The translations under genes and the position numbers were made by a program. Below, piece by piece: positions 9,936-26,865 of a stretch of 26,865 nt of DNA. The stretch is from positions 1 to 26,865 of the IMG/VR virus record IMGVR_UViG_3300010392_003949; one strand, 5' to 3'. The stretch is from a virus. How positions within the stretch are numbered: the stretch's first letter is position 1; each line of letters begins with the position of its first letter. Below the pieces are notes generated by a model. The model saw nothing but the letters and a program-made list of their open reading frames with translations, was not told the origin of the DNA and ran no database searches.

Positions 9936-10694
9936 ATGAAAAAATATACAACCGCCGATTTTGTAAGAATGGCTAGGGAAAAACATGGGGATAAGTATGA
10001 CTATTCATTGGTTGAGTATAAGAATAGAGAGAGTAAAGTAAAAATAATTTGTCCGAAACACGGGATTTTTGAACAAAATGCGCAAAGCCATTATCAAAAA
10101 GGACATGGATGTTTGAGATGCTCAAAACTTAGTTACGAAGATTTCTTAAAAAGGGCTCGAACAATACATGGCAACTTATTCAATTACTCATTGTTGGATT
10201 ACAAAGGGACTAGACAAAGAATTAAAGTAGCATGCCAAAATGGTCATATTTTTAGCATTAGGGCAGACAATCATTTAGCGGGAGGTGGTTGCCCAAAATG
10301 TAAAGAGTCATCCTTGGAGACAAACATGAAGGCAATCCTGATTAGAAACAAAATCCACTACAACCACCAAAAAAAGTTCAAAACATGCTATAATCCCGAA
10401 ACTGACAAAGCCCTAATTTTTGACTTCTATCTTCCTAATTATAAAACACTTATAGAAATTAATGGTCCCGCGCACTACATCAAGAATTTTTACAAATCCA
10501 GCAATGATAACTTCTCCAATAGGGTCAAAAGAGATTTAATAAAGAGGCGCTGGTGCAAAAACAACAATTACAATTTTCTCGTCATTCCATATACAAGAAC
10601 AAAAAATATGGAGGAAATATTGCTTGGCTTTATCGAGAAGAAATCTTGTTTATGCCAGCAAAGCCACCAAATGGAAGTTCCCTCGTTGACTTGA
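9936..10694 (+). CDS. Free-standing homing-type nuclease: two zinc-ribbon modules + PD-(D/E)XK-like domain
   Basis: 252 residues. The N-terminal half has two copies of a DNA-binding zinc module of the type found in phage mobile nucleases: F-x-x-x-A-R/RA, then HG, then YS, then Y, then I/V-x-C. Zinc ligands are Cys39, His42, Cys59, Cys62 and Cys100, His104, Cys119, Cys122. The C-terminal half has FDFYLPNYKTLIEINGPAHY with Asp163 and Glu174 and Asn176 in the place of the usual Lys, as in Vsr/DUF559-like nucleases. It is the only plus-strand gene inside a minus-strand operon and it splits the lambda L-K neighbourhood. There is no clear Shine-Dalgarno. Its last 21 codons run antisense over the end of the L gene (10630-10694). 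I infer a selfish, site-specific element; its target site is unknown. Confidence 0.85.
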   Translation: MKKYTTADFVRMAREKHGDKYDYSLVEYKNRESKVKIICPKHGIFEQNAQSHYQKGHGCLRCSKLSYEDFLKRARTIHGNLFNYSLLDYKGTRQRIKVACQNGHIFSIRADNHLAGGGCPKCKESSLETNMKAILIRNKIHYNHQKKFKTCYNPETDKALIFDFYLPNYKTLIEINGPAHYIKNFYKSSNDNFSNRVKRDLIKRRWCKNNNYNFLVIPYTRTKNMEEILLGFIEKKSCLCQQSHQMEVPSLT

Positions 10695-11761: not shown

Positions 11762-12328
11762 TTACAAAGTAAGTTGATAAGGTTCTGGTTTTACTTGCCT
11801 AAAAATAGCCCTAATATCGAAGTGTTCTCTTGGCTTGGTCTGGGTTTCCCACTGTTCGCAAACAAACATCTTATTGCTCATAAATGGCTTGGGAGGGTTA
11901 AACGCAAACGATTCCACCCCTGCTCTTTGATGAAGAAAGTGCAATATGGCCGTTGTTTCATAAACGTCGCGGGTTAAAAATTGCAAATCATAATTGAGAA
12001 GATTGGTATTTATACCATCCTGGGCTCTGTGTTCAACACCAACACCAAATCTGACTATTTTCAATCTTGGCTGCTGAGTCATCGTTGTTGAGTATGAAGG
12101 GGACCAGATAAAATGTTTTGTCGTTACTCCATTGATTCCCACCTCGGCTTTTGTCCATTTTTCGGAATTGTAGCCATTTATTGTAAAATCACTCAATGAT
12201 TTTTGATGATCCTTGAGGGCATAGTAATAAATATGGCTATTGGCTGGATGCTCAACAATTTCATGCCTTTTTATATTAAAAGATGCCGAACTCCATGTCT
12301 TTATGTCATATATAGAAGGCTGCGCCAT
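11762..12328 (-). CDS. M: Minor tail protein M with N-terminal sugar-binding-like extension
   Basis: 188 residues; lambda gpM is about 110. The gpM core is residues 86-188: PRLKIVRFGVGVEHRAQDG, then NTNLLNYDLQF, ETTAILHFLHQRAG, F-x-F-NPP, FVCEQWE. gpM joins the distal tail tube to L. The N-terminal 45 residues (WSSASFNIKRHEIVEHP, then SHIYYYALKDH) have the aromatic and Y-Y-Y-A-L pattern of a small CBM5/12-like domain, absent from lambda gpM. It is the first gene of the minus-strand block. ATG 12328 follows a doubled ribosome-binding site (AAAGGAATAAGG) and a GTGTAAAA element. A second M-type protein lies on the opposite strand at 14295-14897 with the same two-part layout. Confidence 0.86.
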   Translation of the reverse strand: MAQPSIYDIKTWSSASFNIKRHEIVEHPANSHIYYYALKDHQKSLSDFTINGYNSEKWTKAEVGINGVTTKHFIWSPSYSTTMTQQPRLKIVRFGVGVEHRAQDGINTNLLNYDLQFLTRDVYETTAILHFLHQRAGVESFAFNPPKPFMSNKMFVCEQWETQTKPREHFDIRAIFRQVKPEPYQLTL

Positions 12329-12456: not shown

Positions 12457-14259
12457 ATGTCAAATTTTCAGCCAATCCACAGACTAAATAGGGAAAATGT
12501 ATTTATTTACCTAAATGACACTCCCATTTCAGGCGCCCAAAGCCTGTCGGCCTCTTGGAATAGCAATCTTTCCAATATCAAGTTCCTTGGGATGCAGCAG
12601 CAGGAAATTGTTGAAAAACCAATTGGTCCCCAGGTTGGAACAGTTACCCTAAATTCGCTTGTTGTAAATCAAGACCAATTTATCAACTTTACAGGAGAGG
12701 CGGGACTAAATGGTTATGTATTGGACCCAGAATCAACAAACAAAAACTATTCCTTCACTTCTGGATTCCTAACGTCTTATAATTCAAGAGCTTCCATCAA
12801 CTCAATTCCCGAGATTAACACCACCTTCACAGTCCTTGGGAACATGGGCAATCTCCCAACTGGGGGGCCTCTTGAGTTAAATTTTCAACAAAATAGGTCC
12901 AATTTAAATAATAGCGGCGAATATAGCATAGCCGACCCAAATAGAATTTCAATCAGTCTTGATGATTATGACACAAACCGGGTGTTAAATTATGAACTTA
13001 TTATAAATGTTGACAGAAACAGCTTTTACTCCATTGGGGGAAGATCGGCAAGCGCTGTAAAAATCAATTATCCAATCGAAGTCACCACAACCTTTCAATT
13101 TGAGATTGACAATTATGACTTTCGAAACATGAAGGATAGTCCATGTAAGGAGAAGATTGAAAATCTATCCATTGGACTTAATAAATACCAGGGTGGACAA
13201 ATTTTGTCTTATGATTTTTCCGGCATGAAACTGATTGCCGAAACTTACTCAGCAACCACTGAGGGAAATATTGTTGTTGATGCAACTTATAGGACTTATT
13301 TGAAAAAACTGGATTCGGTTCTAAATGCAAAGCCAGCGCTGCCAAATTTTGATTTTGATTCAAATCAGAATTCCACAACTGGCGTGGCGGCAATTATTTA
13401 TGGGACTGGTGTTTGTGATATAGAATTGGGCGATGATCCCGAATTTTGTTTTGAATGTATTAATGATACCGTTTGTGGCAGGGGGGTTTGCACACCAACG
13501 CCCTCCAATACTCCATCAACATCAATATCGCCAAGCGCCTCAAACACGCCGTCAAACACGCCAACAAATACTCCAACGCCAAGTGTCACACCAAGTATCT
13601 CTGTAACGCCAACACCATCAAACACCCCAACAAATACCCCAACACCGACACCATCTGAAGGAGCACCGCCACCGACACCGCCAGCTTCACCCCCGGCGTC
13701 ACCACCGAATTCGCCACCCAATTCACCACCGGCGTCTCCGCCAAATTCACCGCCCGCTTCTCAACCGGCTGTTGATCCAGAATGTTTTGATGCTTTCGGG
13801 GGCGAAAGGATTCCAACGGTAATTAATGTTCATTTAGCTTTTACTCTTAGGTCAGATTGCCACGGGAATGGGACTAGAGATACTAGCTGTGATGATTTAG
13901 ACACCCTCCTTGATAATGATATTGAGTGTGGCGTTTCCAATGTCACGGTAACTCTTGAAGCATACTCCGAGCAAGAAGGGCTCCAAGTAACATGTGGGTC
14001 AGCAAAGACAATTAATTATGTTTTGGATGGAAATGACGAAAACTCTACACTATTGAATGAAGGTGTCGATGTTCCAATAATTGGTTGTTGTTGCGCACAA
14101 GGTATTAAGTATAGCTATACAACAAGATGCACAAATGATTGCGCTCCAGATTGTGATAGTAATGAAAATTTCCTTGATGTATCGAATGCGACACAAGAAT
14201 GTAATAGCTTTGATGGATGTTGCCCTGAAAATGGTGTTATTATTTCCATAACAGGATAA
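12457..14259 (+). CDS. Tail tube-like protein with Pro/Thr/Ser linker and Cys-rich C-terminal domain
   Basis: 600 residues in three parts. Part 1 (about 1-325) is beta-rich and starts with a strand-turn-strand like tail-tube proteins (NVFIYLNDTPISGAQSLSASW). It also has a YSFTSGFLTSYNSRASINSIPEINTTF-type stretch (positions 12754-12834) that recurs, diverged, in the products at 14897 and 15745. Part 2 (about 346-440) is a low-complexity linker of TPS/NTP repeats followed by PPASPPNSPP repeats. Part 3 (about 443-600) has about 14 Cys, including CCC and two CC-type clusters; five more Cys precede the linker. Such cysteine content is rare in phage tails and suggests a compact domain held by metal or disulphides. 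I infer a structural protein with a surface-exposed display domain, but the role is not proven. The linker is a good O-glycosylation acceptor. Confidence 0.78.
   Translation: MSNFQPIHRLNRENVFIYLNDTPISGAQSLSASWNSNLSNIKFLGMQQQEIVEKPIGPQVGTVTLNSLVVNQDQFINFTGEAGLNGYVLDPESTNKNYSFTSGFLTSYNSRASINSIPEINTTFTVLGNMGNLPTGGPLELNFQQNRSNLNNSGEYSIADPNRISISLDDYDTNRVLNYELIINVDRNSFYSIGGRSASAVKINYPIEVTTTFQFEIDNYDFRNMKDSPCKEKIENLSIGLNKYQGGQILSYDFSGMKLIAETYSATTEGNIVVDATYRTYLKKLDSVLNAKPALPNFDFDSNQNSTTGVAAIIYGTGVCDIELGDDPEFCFECINDTVCGRGVCTPTPSNTPSTSISPSASNTPSNTPTNTPTPSVTPSISVTPTPSNTPTNTPTPTPSEGAPPPTPPASPPASPPNSPPNSPPASPPNSPPASQPAVDPECFDAFGGERIPTVINVHLAFTLRSDCHGNGTRDTSCDDLDTLLDNDIECGVSNVTVTLEAYSEQEGLQVTCGSAKTINYVLDGNDENSTLLNEGVDVPIIGCCCAQGIKYSYTTRCTNDCAPDCDSNENFLDVSNATQECNSFDGCCPENGVIISITG
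13492..13779 (+). repeat. Low-complexity Pro/Thr/Ser linker coding region
   Basis: Codons 346-441 of the tube-like gene. The first half is built of TPTPS, NTPS and NTPT units and the second half of PPAS and PPNS units. The two halves use different repeat types, so they probably expanded separately. Extended, unfolded, Thr/Ser-rich linkers of this kind are typical O-glycan carriers in other systems. Confidence 0.8.
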
Positions 14260-14294: not shown

Positions 14295-14897
14295 ATGGCT
14301 TTACCAGTTTGGCAAAGTGAAAAGGCATACGAGCAATATGACATAATAGAAGAGCCAAATGGATCAAACATTTACTATTATGCTCTTATAAAGCACACCG
14401 CATCATCAACTTCGGGAAGTTCCGGTTCCTCCGGTAGTTCTGGAAGCTCGGGCTCTGCGGGCTCTTTTTACACTGACTTGGTAAAGTGGGCCGGAATCCT
14501 TGAAATAAATGGCAAAAAAATACCACACTTCTTTTGGAGGCCGGATAATAACACAAAATACACAGTTAGAACAGAGGTCAGAAAAGTTCAATTTGGGGAC
14601 GGCTATGAGCAAAGGTCAAAAACAAATATTGACAATATGCTCTTAACTCTTCAACTATCATTCTCAAATCGCCCATACAAAGAGACCGTGGCAATACTCC
14701 ATTTCCTGAACCAAAGGCGCGGCTATGAACAGTTTGTCTATATTCCGCCCTGTATTTACACAACTTATAATTACAACTTTCCAAAAAGATTCGTTTGTAA
14801 GTCTTGGGACCATACAACGGTTTTTAACGAGAATAATAGAATAACAGCGACATTTGAAGAGGTGCCGCCAGAAACCAAATTTGAGGTGATACGCTAA
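14295..14897 (+). CDS. Second minor tail protein M paralogue, with (GSS)n linker
   Basis: 200 residues. Three parts: a CBM5/12-like N-terminal module (5-35: VWQSEKAYEQYDIIEEPNGS, then IYYYALIKH); a flexible linker of GSS repeats (about 37-57); and a gpM core (about 64-200) with VRKVQFGDGYEQRSK, ETVAILHFLNQRRGYEQF, FVCKSW. It is clearly a paralogue of the M protein at 11762-12328: both share the N-terminal module and ILHFL-x-QR-x-G, but this copy is on the other strand and has gained the linker. Its FGDGYEQR motif is closer to the classic gpM than that of the other copy. The linker has the same composition as the fibre at 25176. ATG 14295 has TAAAGG 8 bases upstream. It overlaps the next gene by one base pair triplet end (TAATG). 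Confidence 0.86.
   Translation: MALPVWQSEKAYEQYDIIEEPNGSNIYYYALIKHTASSTSGSSGSSGSSGSSGSAGSFYTDLVKWAGILEINGKKIPHFFWRPDNNTKYTVRTEVRKVQFGDGYEQRSKTNIDNMLLTLQLSFSNRPYKETVAILHFLNQRRGYEQFVYIPPCIYTTYNYNFPKRFVCKSWDHTTVFNENNRITATFEEVPPETKFEVIR
14403..14465 (+). repeat. (Gly-Ser-Ser)n linker coding region
   Basis: Codons 37-57 of the second M-type gene, consisting of four GSS units plus SAGS. The serine codons are mixed (AGT, TCC, TCA, AGC, TCG, TCT), so the unit did not arise by recent slippage of one short DNA repeat. It is the same kind of sequence as the fibre repeats at 25368 and 25911. Confidence 0.85.
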
Positions 14898-16728: not shown

Positions 16729-16754
16729 TACCATGTTTATTTACCATGTTTATT
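16729..16754 (+). repeat. 13-base perfect tandem duplication across the start of the TIG-array gene
   Basis: TACCATGTTTATT occurs twice in a row (16729-16741 and 16742-16754), directly after the stop of the preceding gene. It duplicates the start codon. The first ATG (16733) opens a 7-codon frame that stops with TGA at 16754-16756, just after the real start at 16746. Confidence 0.9.
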
Positions 16755-18992
16755 GAGATTTTTGACAAGATATCCTCCGCGCAAATTGTAGTCAGCAATA
16801 TTGACCCAAAAACAGGTGTTGTTGGTGAGATTATTAGGTTCAGTGGCCAAAATTTTTATGGAATTGATTCCGTAACTTTTGCCGATGGTATTAGCGGTGA
16901 TTTTTCTGTTATATCCGACAAAATAATGCTTGTCACTGTTCCAAATGGCGCCGCCTTTGGTGATGTTACAGTTACCTCAACTTCTAGAAGCACAACTGGA
17001 ACTTACTCAAGTTTTTATCCCTTTCCCAATGTAACTGGCTTTACTCCGAAAACTGGAACCTCTGGTGATGTTATTTCAATTTTTGGCAATGCATTCTCTG
17101 GAATCACCGGGGTAAAAGTAAACAATCTTGATCTAGAGTCTTTTGCTGTTGTTAACAATTCAACAATTACCGGGGCAATTCCATCTGGGAATACAAAAGG
17201 AAATATATCTGTTCATGGATACTTTGGAATTTCGGATGTATCTGTAAAAGAATTTATTCCCCAGCCATCAGCAATAACAGTATCTCCGAGCGGCGATATT
17301 AAGAATGCCCAAGTTACAATCAATGGTCTAAATTTCTTTTCGTCAAACTTATCGGCAACACCGGATGGAAATTATTACTATGTTGGATTTGGGGATGTTT
17401 CAAGAACCGGCGCTTTTGGAATAGTTGACCAATTTACTCTTACCGGCCTGATTCCTCTTAATGGGAAAAGCGGAAATTTATATATATTTGGTGTTGATGG
17501 AGTTAAAAGAAGCGACTTTACATTTGATGTTCAAAACAACTCTCCGACACTAAGCCATGTTTATCCATCTACCGGCGTTTCAAATACAAGATTTTCAGTA
17601 AGTGGAAATAATATCTATGATATTCTTGGTATTGAATTGTCAGGACCAATCAACTCCACCGCTCAAAACATAGCCTGGGATAGCGGAAATGGGAATTACG
17701 TATCTTTTCAAACACAAACAAACTTAAATCCAGGCTACTATACTGTTACAGTCACCGGAAAAGCCGGGGCTGACTTGATAACCAATGGAATTTACATATT
17801 GGGCTCTCCGACATATACGGGATTTTATCCAGATACCGGAGCTTATAATTCCAGCATTATTCTAAGTGGTGAGAATTTTTATAACTTTTCAAGAGTTTAT
17901 ATCAATGACACTGGAAATCCCGTTAACGTATTGTCGGGAACAAATAATTCAGTTCTATATTTAAAATTGCCAAACATTTATGAAACTGGCGCCAAATTTA
18001 TTGTTGATAACACGGTAGCTCCAGTAACGGGCGATTTATTCAGATATTACTTAACCCCCGAAATAACGGGATTTTCACCAACCTCTGGAACTTACAATGA
18101 TGATATTGTTATTTCTGGAAATAATTTTGATGGCGTAACCGGCCTGAGAATTGGAACGAAGTTTGTTCAGGAATTTAGCGTAATAGACAGGACTGGAATT
18201 AATTTTTCACTACCATATGATGTTCTTGATGGAAAGATTCAAATCAGGGCCACGGGAGGCAATTCCTCTTCTTTTGAAATTTTTAACTTCTTAACAACAC
18301 AGCCTATTCTAAGCGGCTTTACTCCCCAGACTGGTTATGATGGAGTTACCGAAATAACCCTTAGTGGCATAGCTCTAAATAATGTATTTTCAATTGAATA
18401 TTCCGGTAATGGAACCACCCTTTTTGACTATTCTTTTTCTTTATCTGGTAATGGATTTTTATACTCAACAATTCCAACAAATACAACCGGCGGCCCCATA
18501 ATACTTGTTGATCAGGAAAACAGAAAGTCACAATCAAGTGATGAGATATCTATTACAGAAATTCTTGTTCCATACATATCAGGATTTTATCCAATGGAGG
18601 GGCCAAGTGGAACATCATTTAATATTAGTGGTTCTGGAATTTTAAACGTAAACCAAGTTTTTGTTAATGGGTCCTCAGTTAGTTTTTCCCATACAACAAT
18701 AGGCTCTGTTCCCGTCGTCAATACATCAATACCGGATATTAATCCATTTAGGCAAGAAATTACAATAAAAGTTTCAAGCCCGGCTGGATCTCACACATCA
18801 GATGAGAGATTTTTGGTTTATGCCGATGACCCACATTTCTATAATACAGAAACCCTAATATCAACTGGTTGGAACTATCCATCCAGCGGCTATGAACGAT
18901 ATATCAAAAAGCTTGGGGATGCAAGCGGGGCCTGGGTTGTTAAAGATCCAATTGGGGTTGAATATGTTATTTCGACTTTTGTCAACATCTAG
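16746..18992 (+). CDS. Array of eight IPT/TIG Ig-like domains, virion surface protein
   Basis: 748 residues made of tandem IPT/TIG domains of about 80-90 residues. Their opening motifs (I-x-G-F-x-P-x-x-G, then I-x-I-x-G-x-N/F) begin near residues 20, 100, 178, 270, 358, 441, 524 and 612. A short tail of about 50 residues follows (TGWNYPSSGYERYIKKLGD, then AWVV). There is no signal peptide or membrane anchor. Ig-like domains of this sort decorate phage capsids, tails and fibres and are thought to bind surface sugars weakly. Repeats are well diverged, so the array is old. ATG 16746 has no clear Shine-Dalgarno and lies in a 13-base duplication. The preceding gene ends in one more TIG domain, suggesting a shared structure. 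Confidence 0.85.
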   Translation: MFIEIFDKISSAQIVVSNIDPKTGVVGEIIRFSGQNFYGIDSVTFADGISGDFSVISDKIMLVTVPNGAAFGDVTVTSTSRSTTGTYSSFYPFPNVTGFTPKTGTSGDVISIFGNAFSGITGVKVNNLDLESFAVVNNSTITGAIPSGNTKGNISVHGYFGISDVSVKEFIPQPSAITVSPSGDIKNAQVTINGLNFFSSNLSATPDGNYYYVGFGDVSRTGAFGIVDQFTLTGLIPLNGKSGNLYIFGVDGVKRSDFTFDVQNNSPTLSHVYPSTGVSNTRFSVSGNNIYDILGIELSGPINSTAQNIAWDSGNGNYVSFQTQTNLNPGYYTVTVTGKAGADLITNGIYILGSPTYTGFYPDTGAYNSSIILSGENFYNFSRVYINDTGNPVNVLSGTNNSVLYLKLPNIYETGAKFIVDNTVAPVTGDLFRYYLTPEITGFSPTSGTYNDDIVISGNNFDGVTGLRIGTKFVQEFSVIDRTGINFSLPYDVLDGKIQIRATGGNSSSFEIFNFLTTQPILSGFTPQTGYDGVTEITLSGIALNNVFSIEYSGNGTTLFDYSFSLSGNGFLYSTIPTNTTGGPIILVDQENRKSQSSDEISITEILVPYISGFYPMEGPSGTSFNISGSGILNVNQVFVNGSSVSFSHTTIGSVPVVNTSIPDINPFRQEITIKVSSPAGSHTSDERFLVYADDPHFYNTETLISTGWNYPSSGYERYIKKLGDASGAWVVKDPIGVEYVISTFVNI

Positions 18993-19031: not shown

Positions 19032-22000
19032 ATGAAGGTAAAGGCGCACACATGCTTTCTTGGAAGAACGGGTTATGCCCATCATTCAAGATCATTTTTT
19101 ACAAAATTATCTGACTATTGTGATCTGAAGGTAAGAAATTATACTGTCGATGATGACATGTACTCCTATCTCACTGATAGACAAAAAGATATAGTAATAG
19201 AACAGAGCCTTCATGACTCAAATGACCAAAGAATAATTCGAGAACACCCCCCATTTTGGAAAGAGGAAATTGAAGCATTTGAACAAGATATTGATATTGT
19301 CTTGGAGGTTCATTCTCATTACTACTTTTATCAAAATTATAGCGCCAAAACAAAGATTGCTTATATTGTCTGGGAATCCACCCTTATGCAGCAGGGGTTC
19401 TTTGACATGATTAAGGACAAGTTTGATTATTTTTGGTGTCCATCAGAATGGCAAAAACAGGCAATGATAAGTCAGGGTTGGGATAAGAATAAGATTTTTG
19501 TTGTCCCGGAGGGGGTTGAGCCAGAACTAAAACCCGTCAATAACACCGAATACCTCTGCAATCAAAAGAAGTTTAGGTTTTTTCTTGCCGGTAGATGGGA
19601 CTATAGAAAATCGACAAGTGAAATAATCAAGGCTTTTTTGGAAGAATTTAAGGACAATGATGATGTTGAATTGGTGTGTTCAATTGACAATAATCATGCT
19701 CAAGATGGATTAACGACAGAACAAAGACTTGTTAAAGAACGTTTTGTTGATGATAAGATAAAAATAATTCATTTTCCAGACAGGGGGGAATATATTAGGT
19801 TGATGCAATATTCCCATTGTCATGTTTCTTGTTCAAGGTCCGAGGGCTGGGGTTTAACTATCTCTGACTCAATAGCTTGCGGAACACCGACAATTTATGC
19901 TCATTGCACCGCACCAATTGACTTTGCATCCGAAATTGGAATTCCAGTAAAAGCCGACGCCCAAAGACCAGCCAAAGACTGCGTGTTTTTGCAAGGCGTT
20001 GATGGAAATTACTATGAACCGGACTTTAATGACTTAAAAAGGCAGATGCGTCATGTTTATGATAATTTCAAAGAATTGAAGGAAAAGGCGGTTGAGTATG
20101 CCCCTAAATTTTCGGAAAAGTATTCATGGGGCAATGCCGCCAAAAAAGCCCACAAAATTTTAAAACAAATATACTCCGGGAACAGGCCAAATGTAAACCC
20201 CCCCGCCTTCTTTGAGGAAGTCACAAAAAAGAAAAACCCAAAAATTGCAATGATAACCCCCCATCTTTCCACGGGGGGCGCGCCAGAATATTTATTTCAA
20301 CTAATCCAAACATTTGACAATCAAGACAACATACATGTTGTAGAGTTAAGTCAATTTAGCAAAAAATACACCATTCAAAGGGAAAAAATCGCGGCAATAT
20401 TGCCAAAAGAAAACTTTCATACTTTGGGTTATGTTCTGGAAGATGAGGATAAGCAAGAGAAGTTTGACCAAAGGTTGCTAAAGTTAAAGCAAATTCTTGA
20501 GGAAATAGCCCCGGATGTTGTTTATTTGAATGAGCAGTTGGAGACGGTTGAGTATAAGCCAATCAATGATGAGTTAATTGAGTATCTGTATCGGAATTAT
20601 CATATTGTCGAAAATTGCCACAATAAGAAGATTTCTGAAAAACGACACCAACCCAACCAATACCTGTTTTGTTGTCAAGAATTGGTCGATGAGGCAGTAA
20701 GTTTGGGGTATGCGCCAGAAAAATATGTTTATGATTTGCCGATTGTAACCAAAAAACGCCCCCCAAGGAACGATTCTTTAAGAAATCTTGGCCTCGATCC
20801 TCAAAAAAAACATGTATTAAATGTTGGTATTCTTGGCAAAAACAAAAACCAAGATTACATTATTGATTTGGCAAGACAAAACCCTGAAGTTGAATTTCAT
20901 TTTATTGGGAACAACTGTTTTTCCAATAGTATGAGAAACACACAAGAGGATATCCAAAAGTTAAAAAACTGCACATTTTGGGGTGAGAGAGATGATGTTG
21001 GTAAATTCATGGAATGCATGGATATTTTCTTGTTTCCGTCCCTTTCAGAAGTTAATCCAATTTCTGTCAAAGAAGCCCTTTCTTATGGTATGGAGATTTG
21101 GGTTAACGATTTGCCCTGCTATGAAAAATATTTTACCCAGGGACTCAATATTAAGAAAATTGACGAATGCAGCTTTACAAATGATAAGAAAATTGCCTGG
21201 GTTTTTTGTTTTACCCAAGACTACGAATACTATGCTGACAATTTAATCAAGGAGTTGGGAGCCAAGTCAAGATTTGATATTATTCCTTATTCTGTGAATT
21301 TTAACAAAGATGGATGCAAAAGAATTGACATAGATCTATCTAATGATACGGGAAACATTTGGGAAAATCTAAAGTATAAGAATTTTAACAAATACTATTC
21401 AAAATTTAAAGCCGCGATTGATTCCACAAGTCTGGATTACGATCAATTTATCTTTATTGACGTTGACATGATTCCTCTTGGTCAGCAGGATCAAATATCA
21501 AAACATTTCAACAAACTTGCCAATTATCCACTTTTTATTAGATATTACCACAATCATATAAATAGCTGGACAGAATACAATGGTAAAAAAACCGAAGGTC
21601 ACTATGGGCAAGAAGTTGAAAAATTACTTGGAGCAAGAAGAAATCTTGATGTTTTGCTGGCAACCGGAATATTTATCTACAACAAAAACAGCGTGCCATT
21701 TTTTGAAGATTGTTTAAACACGTATAAAGAATTAAAAGTTAAAGATATAACTGAATTCTGTGATGATAATGCAATTTCAGAAGAGAGGGTGGCCAATGGG
21801 CTGTTCTGGAAAAAGGGATATAAAAAATTCATTCCCATAACATGGCAGAATAAAGACCATAAAAATTACCATGGAGATTTCAAAAAATATTTAGATCAGG
21901 GCTTTGACATAGTTTATGACATTGAAACTAAACAAGAATTGTTTCTTCATGGACCTGATCCACACTTTGCTAAAAAAACTTCCGAAGCCTTAAATAAAGT

Positions 22001-25000
22001 GGTTAACCAAATGAACGACTCTGAGAACTTAATGATAGTTGCGCATCTTGATGATGAATGTATTTTTGGCGGTAATTTACTTATAGGAAACGAAAAATGG
22101 ACCATTGTTGTTGCAACTCAGCCCTCCAAGGAGAGATTTGACGATTTTAAGAAGGTAATAAAAGAAACCTCTTCCCTGAAATCTGTTGTAATTCTTGGCT
22201 TGGAGGATGATATCAACAAGCAGCTTGATGAAAATCTTTTACACGACCAAATAAAAGAGATTATTGATAAAAGTAACTTTGGCAAAATTATTACCCATAA
22301 TCCAGTTGGGGAATATGGGCACCCACACCATAGAAACGTTTTCAATGCCGTAAAGCGTTTGAATAGAGAGTTTTATGTATTCTGTAAAGACCCTTCGTTT
22401 ACAAACAATAGACAACATTTGCTTAATTGTTATGAGTCTCAACAGGAAATCATTGACCAACTAAAAGAAAAAAATGGCGATTGGTATATCTCTAATGATC
22501 AGTCAACAAACTACATAGACAATCCCGGAATTTCAGAATATGATCTCAATTTGGATAAAAATCCTTTCATTCCATGTTTTTCCAAATCACCTCAAAGCAA
22601 CCTCGGGAAAGAATGTTTTGTAATTACCTCATATTGTAACACTAAGGAAAAACTTGAAGAATTAAAAAAATGTATAGCAAATCTTCCAAAAGATATTGAC
22701 ATAATTCTGTATTCGCCACTTGAGTTGGAGAAAGAGTATCAAGATCTGGTTGATAAATATATCTTTAATAACGAAAATCCAGTTTTTTCCATTGAGGAGA
22801 GATGCCTTCTTTTTTGGCACTTTATAGGACCTGATAAAATAACAGCATGTGTGCCTGATTATGGATATGCCGCAATATATCAAATTAAACATGCTTTTTT
22901 GGCTGCGTGCTCATTTGGCTATGAAACCATTCATTTTATTAACTATGATTGCTTTATAAATAAGGAGTTTTTCCAAAGTCACAGAGACAATTTGCTTAGA
23001 GAAAAGAGCGGGCTTTACTACTTAACTGAAAATAATTATGTAAATATGTTGTTCTTCTCCCTAAAGAATATTAGTTCAAATAGAGATTTTTTTCACAAAG
23101 TAAATAAAAACCATTACATAAAACTCGAAGATGGCGTGGCAGAACATTATCTAACAGACCTTTTTGGAAAATGTGGTCTTTCGCCATTGGAAAGCCCAAA
23201 TGATACAAATATTACTTCAACAATTGATTTTGACCCCGACCCTATAAAAGAGTATCAAACTCAAAAGTTCAAATTTTTCTTTTGTATGGAAGATTTTGGC
23301 GATTTTAATAGATCCAGCAAACTTACGCTTTGTTTTTATGATATTAAGGAGCCCCTTGATGGCCTTTTGGTCAAAACAAATAAAGGAACAGTAGATATTG
23401 GCAACATCCACGAGAATACATTCATTAACACCGAATTTGAATATAACTCCGTTTGTGGTTTGTCAATTTATGAAAATGGTCAAAATGTTTTTAATGTAAA
23501 GGATATTCATTACAACGGCAGGAAAAATTACCTTAAGAGAACGGAAAAAAAATACAATGACCAAAAATATATTTTTATTGACTCAAATGCCCTGGGAGAT
23601 ACGTTGTCCTGGATTCCCTATGTTGATGAATACAGAAAAGTAAATGATTGTAAGGTGATTTGCTATACAATTTGGGCTGATTTATTCAAACAAGAATATC
23701 CAGAAGTAACATTTATTTCGGAAGAAAGCCAAGATTACAGCTTGATTCAAGAGTGTTCTGAAAAGATTATTGTCGGACTTGATCTTGACAAACACAATTA
23801 TACAGAATACTCATTGCAAGAGCACGCCTCAAAAATTTTAGGTCTTAATCACAGAGAAATAGTCCCGAAAGTAACCGTAAAAAACAAAACCAACAACTTT
23901 AAGAAAAAGTATGTCTGTATTGCGACACAAAGCACATCCCAGGCAAAGTATTGGCAAAAAGAATACTGGGAAGAGGTTATAAAATTCCTCAAGAAAGAGG
24001 GGTATGACGTTGTGTGCATAGACAAGTATGAAAGTTTTGGAATTGAGGGTCATTATAATTTTATGCCAGATGGGTGTATTAACAAAACTGGTGAAATTGA
24101 CATAAATGATCGCATAACAGATATTCATAATTGTGAATTTTTCATTGGATTAAGTTCGGGGCTGTCTTGGTTAGCTTGGGCTCTTGGAAAGCCGGTTATA
24201 ATGATTTCTGGATTTACAGACCCTATAAATGAATTTTATAATCCATATAGAGTCATCAATACGAATGTTTGCAACTCTTGTTGGAATGACAAGGAATGTA
24301 AGTTTGATAGATCCAATTGGCTTTGGTGTCCAAGAAATAAAAATTTTGAGTGTTCAAAAGGTATTAAGCCAGATATGGTTATAGAAAAGGCCAAAAAAAT
24401 AATCCATAATTTGGCGCCAAAAATCTTTTTTACCGAAAGGGGGGAAGTGGATTTTTCCAAGTATGATTATAATCAACCAATCTTTGAAACTGGCAAAAAG
24501 TACGGATGGGAGGTGGCATGTTACCAAGAAATATTCATGCATGATGATTATACAAAGAAATTTTCGGTCGAAAAGGACGACATTGTTATTGATGTCGGGG
24601 CGAATATTGGGTTTTTTACAAGATTTGCTGTTGAAAATGGCGCGCAAAAGGTTTATTCAATAGAGCCCAACAAAACATATTATGACTTATTGAAGAAAAA
24701 TACACGCAACCTCAAGAACGTGAAAACACTAAATATGGCCATAATGGGAGAAAATTCCAATATTGAATTTTATGAAAATGGTCATTTTGGAGGATCGTCC
24801 ATACATGAACCAAAAAGTGAAGATCTAAAGAAGAACTACAAGGTAAAATGCCTCAATTTGGACACATTTATGGAACGAAACAAAATAAATAGAATTGATT
24901 TTCTCAAGGTAGATGTTGAGGGGGCCGAAATTGATGTTTTTAATGGCATTTCTGATAAAAACTTGGAAAAAGTAAGAAAAATCGCCCTTGAATATCACAA

Positions 25001-25127
25001 CAATATTTTTTACAAAGATAAATCCACAAGAGACAATTTTATTAAAAGATTTGTTGATTTGGGCTTTAATCCATATACCCTTTTTACCGCAACAGACAAT
25101 CTTCAAATGATATATTTTTGGAAGTAG
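19032..25127 (+). CDS. Seven-domain sugar-modifying enzyme: GT4-GT4-GT-PIG-L-GT-heptosyltransferase-FkbM methyltransferase
   Basis: 2031 residues in one frame. Order and key residues: (A) 1-375 GT4-type transferase, SEGWGL with Glu271 and Asp279; (B) 403-715 second GT4, HLSTGG (411-416) and E-x7-E at 673/681; (C) 717-995 GT-A-like, DVD at 810-812; (D) 1000-1150 PIG-L/LmbE deacetylase, AHLDDE (1004-1009) and GHPHH (1096-1100); (E) 1193-1410 GT-A-like segment, NYD at 1304-1306; (F) 1415-1815 autotransporter O-heptosyltransferase type, SNALGDT (1518-1524), STSQAKYW (1634-1641) and a cysteine finger Cys1747, 1750, 1756, 1766, 1774; (G) 1825-2031 FkbM methyltransferase, DVGANIG (1854-1860), Glu1878, KVDVEGAE (1959-1966). 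No Shine-Dalgarno before ATG 19032. In TibC-type enzymes domain F adds heptose to serines of a repeat protein; the fibre next door is the obvious substrate. Activity and sugar are inferred. Confidence 0.92.
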   Translation: MKVKAHTCFLGRTGYAHHSRSFFTKLSDYCDLKVRNYTVDDDMYSYLTDRQKDIVIEQSLHDSNDQRIIREHPPFWKEEIEAFEQDIDIVLEVHSHYYFYQNYSAKTKIAYIVWESTLMQQGFFDMIKDKFDYFWCPSEWQKQAMISQGWDKNKIFVVPEGVEPELKPVNNTEYLCNQKKFRFFLAGRWDYRKSTSEIIKAFLEEFKDNDDVELVCSIDNNHAQDGLTTEQRLVKERFVDDKIKIIHFPDRGEYIRLMQYSHCHVSCSRSEGWGLTISDSIACGTPTIYAHCTAPIDFASEIGIPVKADAQRPAKDCVFLQGVDGNYYEPDFNDLKRQMRHVYDNFKELKEKAVEYAPKFSEKYSWGNAAKKAHKILKQIYSGNRPNVNPPAFFEEVTKKKNPKIAMITPHLSTGGAPEYLFQLIQTFDNQDNIHVVELSQFSKKYTIQREKIAAILPKENFHTLGYVLEDEDKQEKFDQRLLKLKQILEEIAPDVVYLNEQLETVEYKPINDELIEYLYRNYHIVENCHNKKISEKRHQPNQYLFCCQELVDEAVSLGYAPEKYVYDLPIVTKKRPPRNDSLRNLGLDPQKKHVLNVGILGKNKNQDYIIDLARQNPEVEFHFIGNNCFSNSMRNTQEDIQKLKNCTFWGERDDVGKFMECMDIFLFPSLSEVNPISVKEALSYGMEIWVNDLPCYEKYFTQGLNIKKIDECSFTNDKKIAWVFCFTQDYEYYADNLIKELGAKSRFDIIPYSVNFNKDGCKRIDIDLSNDTGNIWENLKYKNFNKYYSKFKAAIDSTSLDYDQFIFIDVDMIPLGQQDQISKHFNKLANYPLFIRYYHNHINSWTEYNGKKTEGHYGQEVEKLLGARRNLDVLLATGIFIYNKNSVPFFEDCLNTYKELKVKDITEFCDDNAISEERVANGLFWKKGYKKFIPITWQNKDHKNYHGDFKKYLDQGFDIVYDIETKQELFLHGPDPHFAKKTSEALNKVVNQMNDSENLMIVAHLDDECIFGGNLLIGNEKWTIVVATQPSKERFDDFKKVIKETSSLKSVVILGLEDDINKQLDENLLHDQIKEIIDKSNFGKIITHNPVGEYGHPHHRNVFNAVKRLNREFYVFCKDPSFTNNRQHLLNCYESQQEIIDQLKEKNGDWYISNDQSTNYIDNPGISEYDLNLDKNPFIPCFSKSPQSNLGKECFVITSYCNTKEKLEELKKCIANLPKDIDIILYSPLELEKEYQDLVDKYIFNNENPVFSIEERCLLFWHFIGPDKITACVPDYGYAAIYQIKHAFLAACSFGYETIHFINYDCFINKEFFQSHRDNLLREKSGLYYLTENNYVNMLFFSLKNISSNRDFFHKVNKNHYIKLEDGVAEHYLTDLFGKCGLSPLESPNDTNITSTIDFDPDPIKEYQTQKFKFFFCMEDFGDFNRSSKLTLCFYDIKEPLDGLLVKTNKGTVDIGNIHENTFINTEFEYNSVCGLSIYENGQNVFNVKDIHYNGRKNYLKRTEKKYNDQKYIFIDSNALGDTLSWIPYVDEYRKVNDCKVICYTIWADLFKQEYPEVTFISEESQDYSLIQECSEKIIVGLDLDKHNYTEYSLQEHASKILGLNHREIVPKVTVKNKTNNFKKKYVCIATQSTSQAKYWQKEYWEEVIKFLKKEGYDVVCIDKYESFGIEGHYNFMPDGCINKTGEIDINDRITDIHNCEFFIGLSSGLSWLAWALGKPVIMISGFTDPINEFYNPYRVINTNVCNSCWNDKECKFDRSNWLWCPRNKNFECSKGIKPDMVIEKAKKIIHNLAPKIFFTERGEVDFSKYDYNQPIFETGKKYGWEVACYQEIFMHDDYTKKFSVEKDDIVIDVGANIGFFTRFAVENGAQKVYSIEPNKTYYDLLKKNTRNLKNVKTLNMAIMGENSNIEFYENGHFGGSSIHEPKSEDLKKNYKVKCLNLDTFMERNKINRIDFLKVDVEGAEIDVFNGISDKNLEKVRKIALEYHNNIFYKDKSTRDNFIKRFVDLGFNPYTLFTATDNLQMIYFWK

Positions 25128-25142
25128 CCTTTTTATGGCCTA

Positions 25143-25150
25143 GTGTAAAA
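25143..25150 (+). promoter_or_regulatory. GTGTAAAA element upstream of the fibre gene
   Basis: The leader reads GTGTAAAAATTATTAGG and lies 33 bases before ATG 25176. A doubled ribosome-binding site (TAAGGAATAAGG, 25163-25174) follows, nearly the same as that of the M gene on the other strand. This suggests strong late expression of the fibre. Confidence 0.52.
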
Positions 25151-25175
25151 ATTATTAGGTCATAAGGAATAAGGA

Positions 25176-26865
25176 ATGTCAGAAATAACAAGGTTTTTCA
25201 TTGGCGACAGGATATTTGCACCATTGGATGCCACGGGGGATTATGTCAATAAATATCAAGATGGCGCCATATTCACCACACAGGAGCAGCCATACAGACA
25301 ATATGTATTAAGAAGCGGACAATGGCAACAACTTACCTCAACTGGGGATGGTGCGGCTGGCGTCCCTGGAACATCTGGAACTAGCGGAACATCAGGTACT
25401 TCTGGCACGTCTGGATCATCTGGAAGTTCTGGTTCTTCGGGATCTTCCGGCACAGATGGAACAAGTGGAAGTTCGGGTTCATCTGGAACATCAGGAGCAA
25501 ATGGATCTTCCGGCCTATTGTCTTTAACTGGAGATCAAGACAGGGGTATTATTGTTTTAAATGGTTCGGCGCCAAATGGTTATGTATCTGAATATGTTGT
25601 AATAAGCGGAAGCGGGCTGGGGGTCAATACTCTTGAGCCGTCTGGGTGGGTCCACGTTCATCAAAGCGGTGGCGGTTGGCCACATCTTTTTTTAACAAAT
25701 GAAAATCAAATAGTTGTTTCTGTTTCCGGTTCCGGTGTTTTTATGCCACAGATTAAATCTGGTGACATAGAAGCATTTACTTTTATTACTACGGGTGATA
25801 ATGGGGAAATTGTTCATACACATGTTAAAAATCTACCTTCTGGTGTTGGAAGTCAATTTATAACAGTTGAAAGTGATGGAAGTCTCGCTCTTAGACCATC
25901 GGATGCTCAAGGAACATCTGGAACGTCTGGAAGTTCAGGCACTTCTGGTTCATCCGGGACAAGTGGCACTTCGGCAGTTGGCGTTACTTCTGGAACAAGT
26001 GGCTCGTCCGGTTCTTCTGGAACAGATGGAACTAGCGGTAGCTCAGGATCTTCTGGAACAGATGGCTCTTCGGGAAATGATGGAACTTCTGGGTCATCCG
26101 GGTCCTCAGGAGCAGATGGAACTAGCGGCAGCTCAGGATCTTCTGGAACAGATGGCTCTTCTGGAACAGACGGTTCTTCTGGTGGAGATGGAACATCCGG
26201 TTCGTCTGGATCATCTGGCGCTGACGGAACATCTGGTTCATCGGGTTCTTCAGGGGTAGATGGAACTTCGGGTTCGTCCGGTAGTTCTGGAACAGACGGT
26301 TCTTCAGGTGGAGATGGAACGAGTGGTTCATCGGGGTCTTCCGGCGTTGATGGAACAAGCGGAAGTTCAGGTTCTTCTGGCTTTGATGGCAATGCTGGAA
26401 CAAGCGGATCATCCGGTTCGTCTGGAACTGATGGGACAAGTGGTAGTTCTGGCTCATCTGGAACTGATGGTTCATCCGGGGGTGATGGGACCTCAGGCTC
26501 CTCTGGTTCTTCTGGGGTAGATGGAACATCTGGTTCATCAGGCTCTTCCGGCGTGGATGGAACTTCTGGTTCTTCCGGCTCATCTGGAACCGATGGCTCA
26601 TCTGGTGGTGATGGAACAAGTGGATCATCTGGTTCATCTGGAGTTGACGGAACATCTGGGTCTTCGGGATCTTCCGGTGTTGATGGTACGTCTGGATCTT
26701 CTGGAAGTTCTGGTGTTGACGGGACAAGTGGTAGTTCTGGCTCATCTGGAACAGACGGTTCTTCTGGTGGAGATGGAACATCCGGTTCGTCTGGATCATC
26801 TGGCGCTGACGGAACATCTGGTTCATCGGGTTCTTCAGGGGTAGATGGAACTTCGGGTTCGTCCG
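25176..26865 (+). CDS. Collagen-like Gly-X-Y tail fibre, 3'-partial
   Basis: Open from ATG 25176 to the right edge, 563 codons seen and no stop. Residues 1-64 form an N-terminal domain (MSEITRFFIGDRIFAPLDAT, ending in QPYRQYVLRSGQWQQLT) that probably binds the tail. Residues 65-113 are a first Gly-X-Y block; 114-245 a globular beta-rich domain with several His (WVHVHQ, GWPHLF, VHTHVKN), which may bind metal; 246-563 a long second Gly-X-Y block built of GTSGSSGSSG-x-DG units, x being T, A, V or F. X and Y are nearly always Ser, Thr or Asp; Pro is absent, unlike most collagens, so the helix would need other stabilisation, for example glycans on Thr/Ser. One interruption, TSAVGVTSG, at about 25968-25994. 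Translation is likely very strong from the doubled ribosome-binding site. Receptor-binding tip not in the window. Confidence 0.9.
   Translation, partial: MSEITRFFIGDRIFAPLDATGDYVNKYQDGAIFTTQEQPYRQYVLRSGQWQQLTSTGDGAAGVPGTSGTSGTSGTSGTSGSSGSSGSSGSSGTDGTSGSSGSSGTSGANGSSGLLSLTGDQDRGIIVLNGSAPNGYVSEYVVISGSGLGVNTLEPSGWVHVHQSGGGWPHLFLTNENQIVVSVSGSGVFMPQIKSGDIEAFTFITTGDNGEIVHTHVKNLPSGVGSQFITVESDGSLALRPSDAQGTSGTSGSSGTSGSSGTSGTSAVGVTSGTSGSSGSSGTDGTSGSSGSSGTDGSSGNDGTSGSSGSSGADGTSGSSGSSGTDGSSGTDGSSGGDGTSGSSGSSGADGTSGSSGSSGVDGTSGSSGSSGTDGSSGGDGTSGSSGSSGVDGTSGSSGSSGFDGNAGTSGSSGSSGTDGTSGSSGSSGTDGSSGGDGTSGSSGSSGVDGTSGSSGSSGVDGTSGSSGSSGTDGSSGGDGTSGSSGSSGVDGTSGSSGSSGVDGTSGSSGSSGVDGTSGSSGSSGTDGSSGGDGTSGSSGSSGADGTSGSSGSSGVDGTSGSS
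25368..25514 (+). repeat. First Gly-X-Y repeat block of the fibre
   Basis: 49 codons of GTS, GSS, GTD and GAN triplets. Separated from the longer block by a globular domain of about 130 residues, so the fibre has a short stalk, a knob and a long stalk. Confidence 0.88.
26160..26280 (+). repeat. 121-base exact direct repeat, copy 1
   Basis: Identical base for base to 26745-26865, 585 bases downstream. The base before it (T at 26159, A at 26744) differs. Given the free variation of serine codons elsewhere, the identity means recent duplication, gene conversion or an assembly effect. Confidence 0.93.
26745..26865 (+). repeat. 121-base exact direct repeat, copy 2, ending at the window edge
   Basis: Second copy of 26160-26280. 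The window stops exactly where the repeat copy stops being checkable, as expected when an assembler cannot cross a repeat. The true number of repeat units in the fibre is therefore unknown. Confidence 0.93.

Follow-up and report, generated by a model that had tools for sequence, protein, structure and literature searches.

A TibC-type glycosyltransferase encoded beside a collagen-like tail fibre suggests a phage protein-glycosylation module

The virus record IMGVR_UViG_3300010392_003949, from IMG/VR, encodes a large multidomain enzyme immediately upstream of a collagen-like fibre. We analysed the entire 26,865-base record (hereafter, the window). The gene pair is probably a phage protein-glycosylation module, in which a TibC-type domain would O-glycosylate repeats in the downstream fibre, and the domains fused to it would build the glycan. 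The core of the enzyme matches a serine-heptosylating enzyme of bacteria, and relatives of the two genes co-occur in many phages and in some bacteria; hence, the fibre is probably glycosylated by the enzyme. Both genes are on the forward strand, separated by 48 bases, and the fibre reading frame is still open at the contig end (Table 1).

The decisive new point is the identity of the GT9 domain in the enzyme. Against the equivalog model TIGR04414, for which the curated cut-off is 200 bits, the domain scored 289.1 bits (E 5e-86). Solved TibC (PDB 4rap) was matched with an E value of 2.5e-56, compared to 2.6e-3 or worse for lipopolysaccharide (LPS) heptosyltransferases. Similarly, an AlphaFold model of the domain gave a Z score of 33.7 with TibC, and 19.6-22.9 with LPS heptosyltransferases and a related GT9 structure. 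An LPS-type heptosyltransferase is ruled out by these distances in sequence and fold. In TibC, the functional residues are the catalytic Asp-110, the sugar-binding Thr-226, Lys-230, Arg-286 and Trp-305, and the iron-finger Cys-339, Cys-342, Cys-358 and Cys-370 (PMC4358343). An LGD motif in the window enzyme aligns on Asp-110, and this Asp is invariant in relatives (A1 and A4). The sugar-binding positions are all occupied by identical residues, including the Arg-286 equivalent that most A1 relatives lack. The four iron-finger Cys are also identical, and invariant in phage relatives. At the position of TibC Pro-300 the enzyme has Ser, like AAH, where this residue permits both heptose isomers. 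In TibC, a beta-hairpin thumb serves dodecamer assembly. The thumb is modelled here as beta-hairpin strands, but the Phe-Val at its tip is not kept, and the segment is absent in several relatives. For the N-terminal beta-barrel, the 4rap alignment spans model residues 185-603, yet the predicted local distance difference test (pLDDT) score is below 50 across much of the barrel region. We conclude that the GT9 domain is, judged by sequence and modelled fold, a clear member of the BAHT family of TibC/AAH protein O-heptosyltransferases. No neighbouring beta-helical autotransporter substrate was recognised among the window genes. On these grounds, the enzyme counts as a BAHT member and the locus is no autotransporter pair.

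These comparisons also bear on whether the enzyme instead changes host LPS or capsule, so blocking superinfection or switching serotype. The GT9 family includes LPS heptosyltransferases too, and glycosyltransferases of pelagimyophage host-recognition clusters, which are similar phage islands, have been proposed as host-surface modifiers (PMC7029224). We consider a role at the host surface very unlikely. The domain is far nearer to TibC, by both E value and Z score (33.7 against about 20-22), and it has the iron finger. Furthermore, action on the host would leave the position in a tail module, and the association with repeats described below, unexplained.

The fibre matches the Pfam Collagen family (PF01391) with an E value of 3e-48, and also PHROG tail fibre families. 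By its G-X-Y repeat and these family matches, it is a phage collagen-like tail fibre. The repeat runs comprise 123 G-X-Y triplets and contain 147 Ser, 43 Thr and a single Pro. Every Gly and Ser codon occurs and synonymous choices are fully mixed, so the repeat is maintained by selection on the protein. The same codon diversity rules out a DNA satellite as the origin of the repeat. The first-pass annotation had described a 2031-residue glycosyltransferase, deacetylase and methyltransferase enzyme, 48 bases upstream of a fibre made almost only of Gly, Ser, Thr and Asp. Reading frames and Pfam matches confirm this layout. The composition holds for the repeat runs, but not over the whole length of the fibre, which also includes an N-terminal part of 58 residues and, at residues about 116-245, an insert without repeats.

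Besides GT9, the Pfam matches above cut-off in the enzyme are two GT4 regions, PIG-L and an FkbM methyltransferase. Domain 3 has no Pfam match; D76, D78, E184, H239 and G240 are invariant among four sequences, being the enzyme and three distant relatives. A predicted structure for this domain was discarded for its low confidence (pLDDT 39); the modelled piece was also without its first strand. Domain 5 recurs next to TibC domains in other phages. For the substrate, the sugar, the sequence of reactions and the possible advantage, we infer the following. The TibC/AAH-type domain would place the first sugar directly on Ser, and perhaps Thr, of the G-[ST]-[ST] fibre repeats. This sugar may be heptose, or another sugar, taken from a nucleotide donor in the pool of the infected cell. 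Chain extension would then fall to the GT4 domains, and probably to two other glycosyltransferase-like domains. PIG-L may remove the acetyl group from an amino sugar, and the FkbM domain may methylate the glycan end. Stiffness, protease shielding and receptor mimicry are conjectured benefits. In a deep-sea worm, glycosylated Thr can stand in for hydroxyproline and stabilise the collagen helix; hence, stiffening of the fibre is plausible.

TibC domains and G-[ST]-[ST] repeats are associated non-randomly in phages. Among records selected by a GTSGSS-type fibre, 16 of 50 encode TibC, compared to 1 of 39 controls chosen by an unrelated proline pattern (Fisher p 3e-4). Among these controls, the sole TibC-positive record is also the only one to carry a G-[ST]-[ST] fibre. 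Conversely, when records of at least 20 kb were selected by TibC, the fibre pattern was found in 23 of 44. The equivalent counts for controls were 1/39 and, in an AT-rich set, 2/18 (pooled 3/57, p 8e-8). All three fibre-positive controls also carry TibC. In the AT-rich set, the check for TibC covered two of the 18 records, the fibre-positive ones, in pieces; in each, a TibC gene and the fibre are about 5 kb apart. For TibC-selected records above 100 kb, the fibre pattern occurs in five of six. Note that the Fisher p-values are optimistic, because related records were kept in without thinning. Of 17 records with both genes, 9 have the fibre no more than 4 kb from the TibC domain, while random placement, a null that ignores late-gene clustering, expects 3.9 (p 0.004). 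Proximity at 1.7 kb alone is not significant (p 0.10). The two genes can be on the same strand or convergent, and in either order.

The association extends to bacterial chromosomes. A genome scan with the TibC alignment gave five loci, one of which (L442) is phage-like. In gammaproteobacterial metagenome-assembled genomes, a stand-alone TibC gene is about 2 kb or less from G-[ST]-[ST] runs (L443, L444 and L446), and the runs of L444 and L446 sit inside small lipoproteins. In Schekmanbacteria (L445), the distance is 5.5 kb. We also searched 369 genomes of the same gammaproteobacterial class, blind to repeats. Two had TIGR04414 matches above cut-off: the L444 genome and one other, where the TibC gene is 108 bases from a 112-residue lipoprotein with GTSGTTGTSG repeats. 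In total, four gammaproteobacterial TibC loci have such repeats within about 2 kb. By comparison, 0 of 20 LPS-type GT9 loci from the class (237 kb in total) have a G-[ST]-[ST] run. While the number of bacterial loci is small, which limits this evidence, the link they show is independent of phage ancestry. Repeat lipoproteins or runs beside stand-alone TibC genes (L444, L446, L443 and L484) often have acidic tail ends, and these loci may represent a cellular counterpart of the phage writer and acceptor.

Several results weigh against the fibre as substrate. First, an S/T-rich repeat is inside the examined flank in only 11 of 80 enzyme-selected loci, and many phage TibC genes are without a fibre within 4.5 kb. 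Many enzyme contigs stop nearby, because repeats break assemblies; others have long flanks and still no fibre. Second, the known substrates of the BAHT family are beta-helical autotransporters, unlike the collagen-like repeats here. Third, an ADP-heptose synthase (TIGR02199) was above cut-off in none of 43 viral records. Hence, the donor would come from the host, and a supply of ADP-heptose made by the phage is unsupported. Fourth, in a terminase-matched set the fibre is present in 9 of 26 TibC-positive and 1 of 8 TibC-negative records, a difference that is not significant. Some of the phage signal may thus stem from shared ancestry. The first-pass annotation had proposed a TibC/AAH-type enzyme acting on an adjacent Ser/Thr repeat protein; family membership, active site, and repeat association in phages and bacteria strongly support this. 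It had also envisaged a fixed adjacent pair of writer and substrate, which the 11 of 80 loci do not support. As to whether homologues always adjoin GTSGSS-type fibres, adjacency fails by the same count, but a fibre occurs somewhere in about half of the enzyme-selected records of at least 20 kb.

In its extreme form, shared ancestry would explain the association entirely: large aquatic phages would happen to carry the two genes, which would be unrelated in function. Like the terminase result, the clustering of labels on the TibC tree is in keeping with this. However, adjacency has changed at least 12 times on that tree, with at least seven changes forced by well-supported (starred) branches. 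Gene orders and strands vary, and the same link is found at bacterial chromosomal loci. Hence, we regard ancestry without function as most improbable.

The enzyme could alternatively glycosylate the virion but act chiefly on another structural protein, with the fibre neighbourhood being incidental. The rest of the window is a siphophage-like tail module, encoding J-like central tail, tail assembly, minor tail, tape measure and TIG-domain proteins, and the TibC gene sits among tail genes. Candidate acceptors are the TIG-repeat protein (16746-18992), a Pro/Thr/Ser-rich protein (12457-14259) and the minor tail protein with the further GSS run (14415-14468). Elsewhere, many phage TibC genes have sheath, terminase or tape-measure genes as neighbours and lack an adjoining fibre. 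Conversely, the G-[ST]-[ST] link is seen again in settings unrelated to one another, among them bacterial lipoproteins and directly adjoining fibres, and we think another chief acceptor unlikely.

For the fibre as acceptor, other phages provide informative arrangements. TibC-type genes are frequent in uncultivated phages, and at least 581 viral stretches encode relatives of the TibC domain. These were found by scanning with an alignment of the domain, which was required, since scanning viral contigs with the whole enzyme as a single protein gave no match. Among relatives, the TibC domain is joined to GT4, FkbM and domains without a Pfam match in many different arrangements. The closest relative (L442, 56% identity) is in a phage-like locus, where the gene for a repeat fibre, which bears an S74 chaperone, stops three bases ahead of a GT4-TibC-FkbM enzyme. 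At another locus (L346), the modules are divided over two genes and a repeat fibre is 294 bases from the TibC domain. Two viral records (G119 and G140) each have two TibC-type genes. In an annotated phage collection, matches were confined to Microcystis phage Mel-JY01 and three uncultured giant-phage records. Mel-JY01 is an isolate, and its TibC-type enzyme (WWT39291.1, 1227 residues, annotated as methyltransferase FkbM) is flanked by repeat fibres on either side. As in the window, GT4 and TibC domains are in one protein; unlike the window enzyme, it has other middle domains, and PIG-L was not found. The downstream Mel-JY01 fibre is in two overlapping frames (L003:9152-9986), due to a frameshift or sequencing error. 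One uncultured phage protein already bears the automatic annotation 'Glycosyltransferase Aah/TibC'. Our search of the open-access literature found no description of TibC-type phage genes, or of such genes being tied to G-[ST]-[ST] repeats.

Table 1. Features of the enzyme, the fibre and a possible second acceptor (window coordinates; res., enzyme residues)
Feature	Position	Strand	Basis
Multidomain enzyme, predicted to build a glycan, 2031 aa	19032..25127	+	Open reading frame; Pfam; NCBIfam
Domain 1, GT4-type glycosyltransferase, res. 1-390	19032..20201	+	PF20706 above cut-off; PF00534 in two stretches; PHROG 2170
Domain 2, GT4-type glycosyltransferase, res. about 400-735	20229..21236	+	PF00534/PF13692, best stretch 583-704
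Domain 3, probable GT-A-type glycosyltransferase with DxD motif, res. 735-1000	21234..22031	+	FIDVDMIPL motif
Domain 4, PIG-L/LmbE-type de-N-acetylase, res. 1000-1109	22029..22358	+	PF02585 above cut-off; AHLDDE and GHPHHR motifs by eye
Domain 5, no Pfam match, res. 1195-1440	22614..23351	+	29 relatives among the loci examined
Strand-rich region at the place of the TibC N-terminal beta-barrel	23166..23555	+	4rap alignment
Domain 6, TibC/AAH-type O-heptosyltransferase catalytic domain	23526..24422	+	TIGR04414; PDB TibC; fold Z
Codon of catalytic base Asp, res. 1523 (TibC Asp-110)	23598..23600	+	4rap alignment; invariant in A1, A4
Iron-finger C1747, C1750, C1766, C1774 (TibC C339, C342, C358, C370)	24270..24353	+	Invariant in phage relatives
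Domain 7, FkbM-type methyltransferase, res. 1854-2011	24591..25064	+	PF05050 E 2.8e-23; TIGR01444 above cut-off
Collagen-like fibre gene, proposed substrate, cut by contig end, 563 aa readable up to 26864	25176..26865	+	PF01391; PHROG tail fibre families; composition
G-[ST]-[ST] repeat run 1	25350..25520	+	Sequence composition
G-X-Y repeat run 3, 97 triplets, Ser/Thr/Asp-rich	25992..26864	+	Sequence composition
Phage minor tail protein (PF05939) with GSSGSSGSSGSS run inserted at 14415-14468, possible second acceptor	14295..14897	+	

Other window genes have features of their own. The minor tail protein in Table 1 has an apparent paralogue, without the GSSGSSGSSGSS run, on the reverse strand at 11762-12328. 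The Pro/Thr/Ser-rich protein, of 600 residues, has a mucin-like stretch at 13400-13750, and a similar TPTPTS stretch is near a TibC gene in another locus (L205). A 252-residue reading frame (9936-10694), on the opposite strand among the tail genes, has weak DUF4379/DUF723 treble-clef matches and is perhaps a homing-endonuclease-like insertion.

So far, glycosyltransferases of aquatic phages have been read as tools acting on host LPS (PMC7029224) or on phage DNA. A TibC-type writer tied to G-[ST]-[ST] repeats suggests a different role, in which phages glycosylate their own virion fibres; this may apply to hundreds of uncultivated viruses of this kind, and it singles out a simple motif as acceptor. 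The chances seem to us evenly balanced that TibC-type enzymes read this motif as a general acceptor code, giving capped O-glycans on proline-free phage fibres and some bacterial lipoprotein tails, and that glycosylated virion fibres are widespread but overlooked. Glycosylation of the fibre would add a new type of acceptor to an enzyme family so far associated with adhesins of pathogenic E. coli, and might account for the stability of fibres that have almost no proline.

Three known systems resemble the proposed module. The BAHT pairs are TibC-TibA of enterotoxigenic E. coli and AAH-AIDA-I of diffusely adhering E. coli. The window enzyme shares with them the catalytic domain, the catalytic Asp, sugar-binding residues and iron-finger Cys, as well as a gene position near a Ser-rich repeat protein that is the candidate substrate. 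Unlike these pairs, the window enzyme is fused to GT4, PIG-L and FkbM domains and is encoded in a phage tail module; its candidate substrate is a collagen-like fibre, whereas the partners of TibC and AAH are beta-helical autotransporters. Compared to TibC itself, it has the AAH-like Ser at the Pro-300 position and different residues at the tip of the thumb. The Bacillus BclA-type system is a collagen-like spore filament carrying O-glycans that end in methylated sugars. By description, filament and glycan are both like those proposed here, but the setting is a bacterial spore surface and the enzymes are others. Finally, mycobacteriophage virion proteins are glycosylated by phage enzymes, according to the account of Freeman et al. 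2023 given in PMC12619734. Common to both cases are phage-encoded enzymes, known or proposed to modify virion proteins. The mycobacteriophage targets named in that account are capsid and tail tube subunits, whereas the target proposed in the window is a collagen-like fibre.

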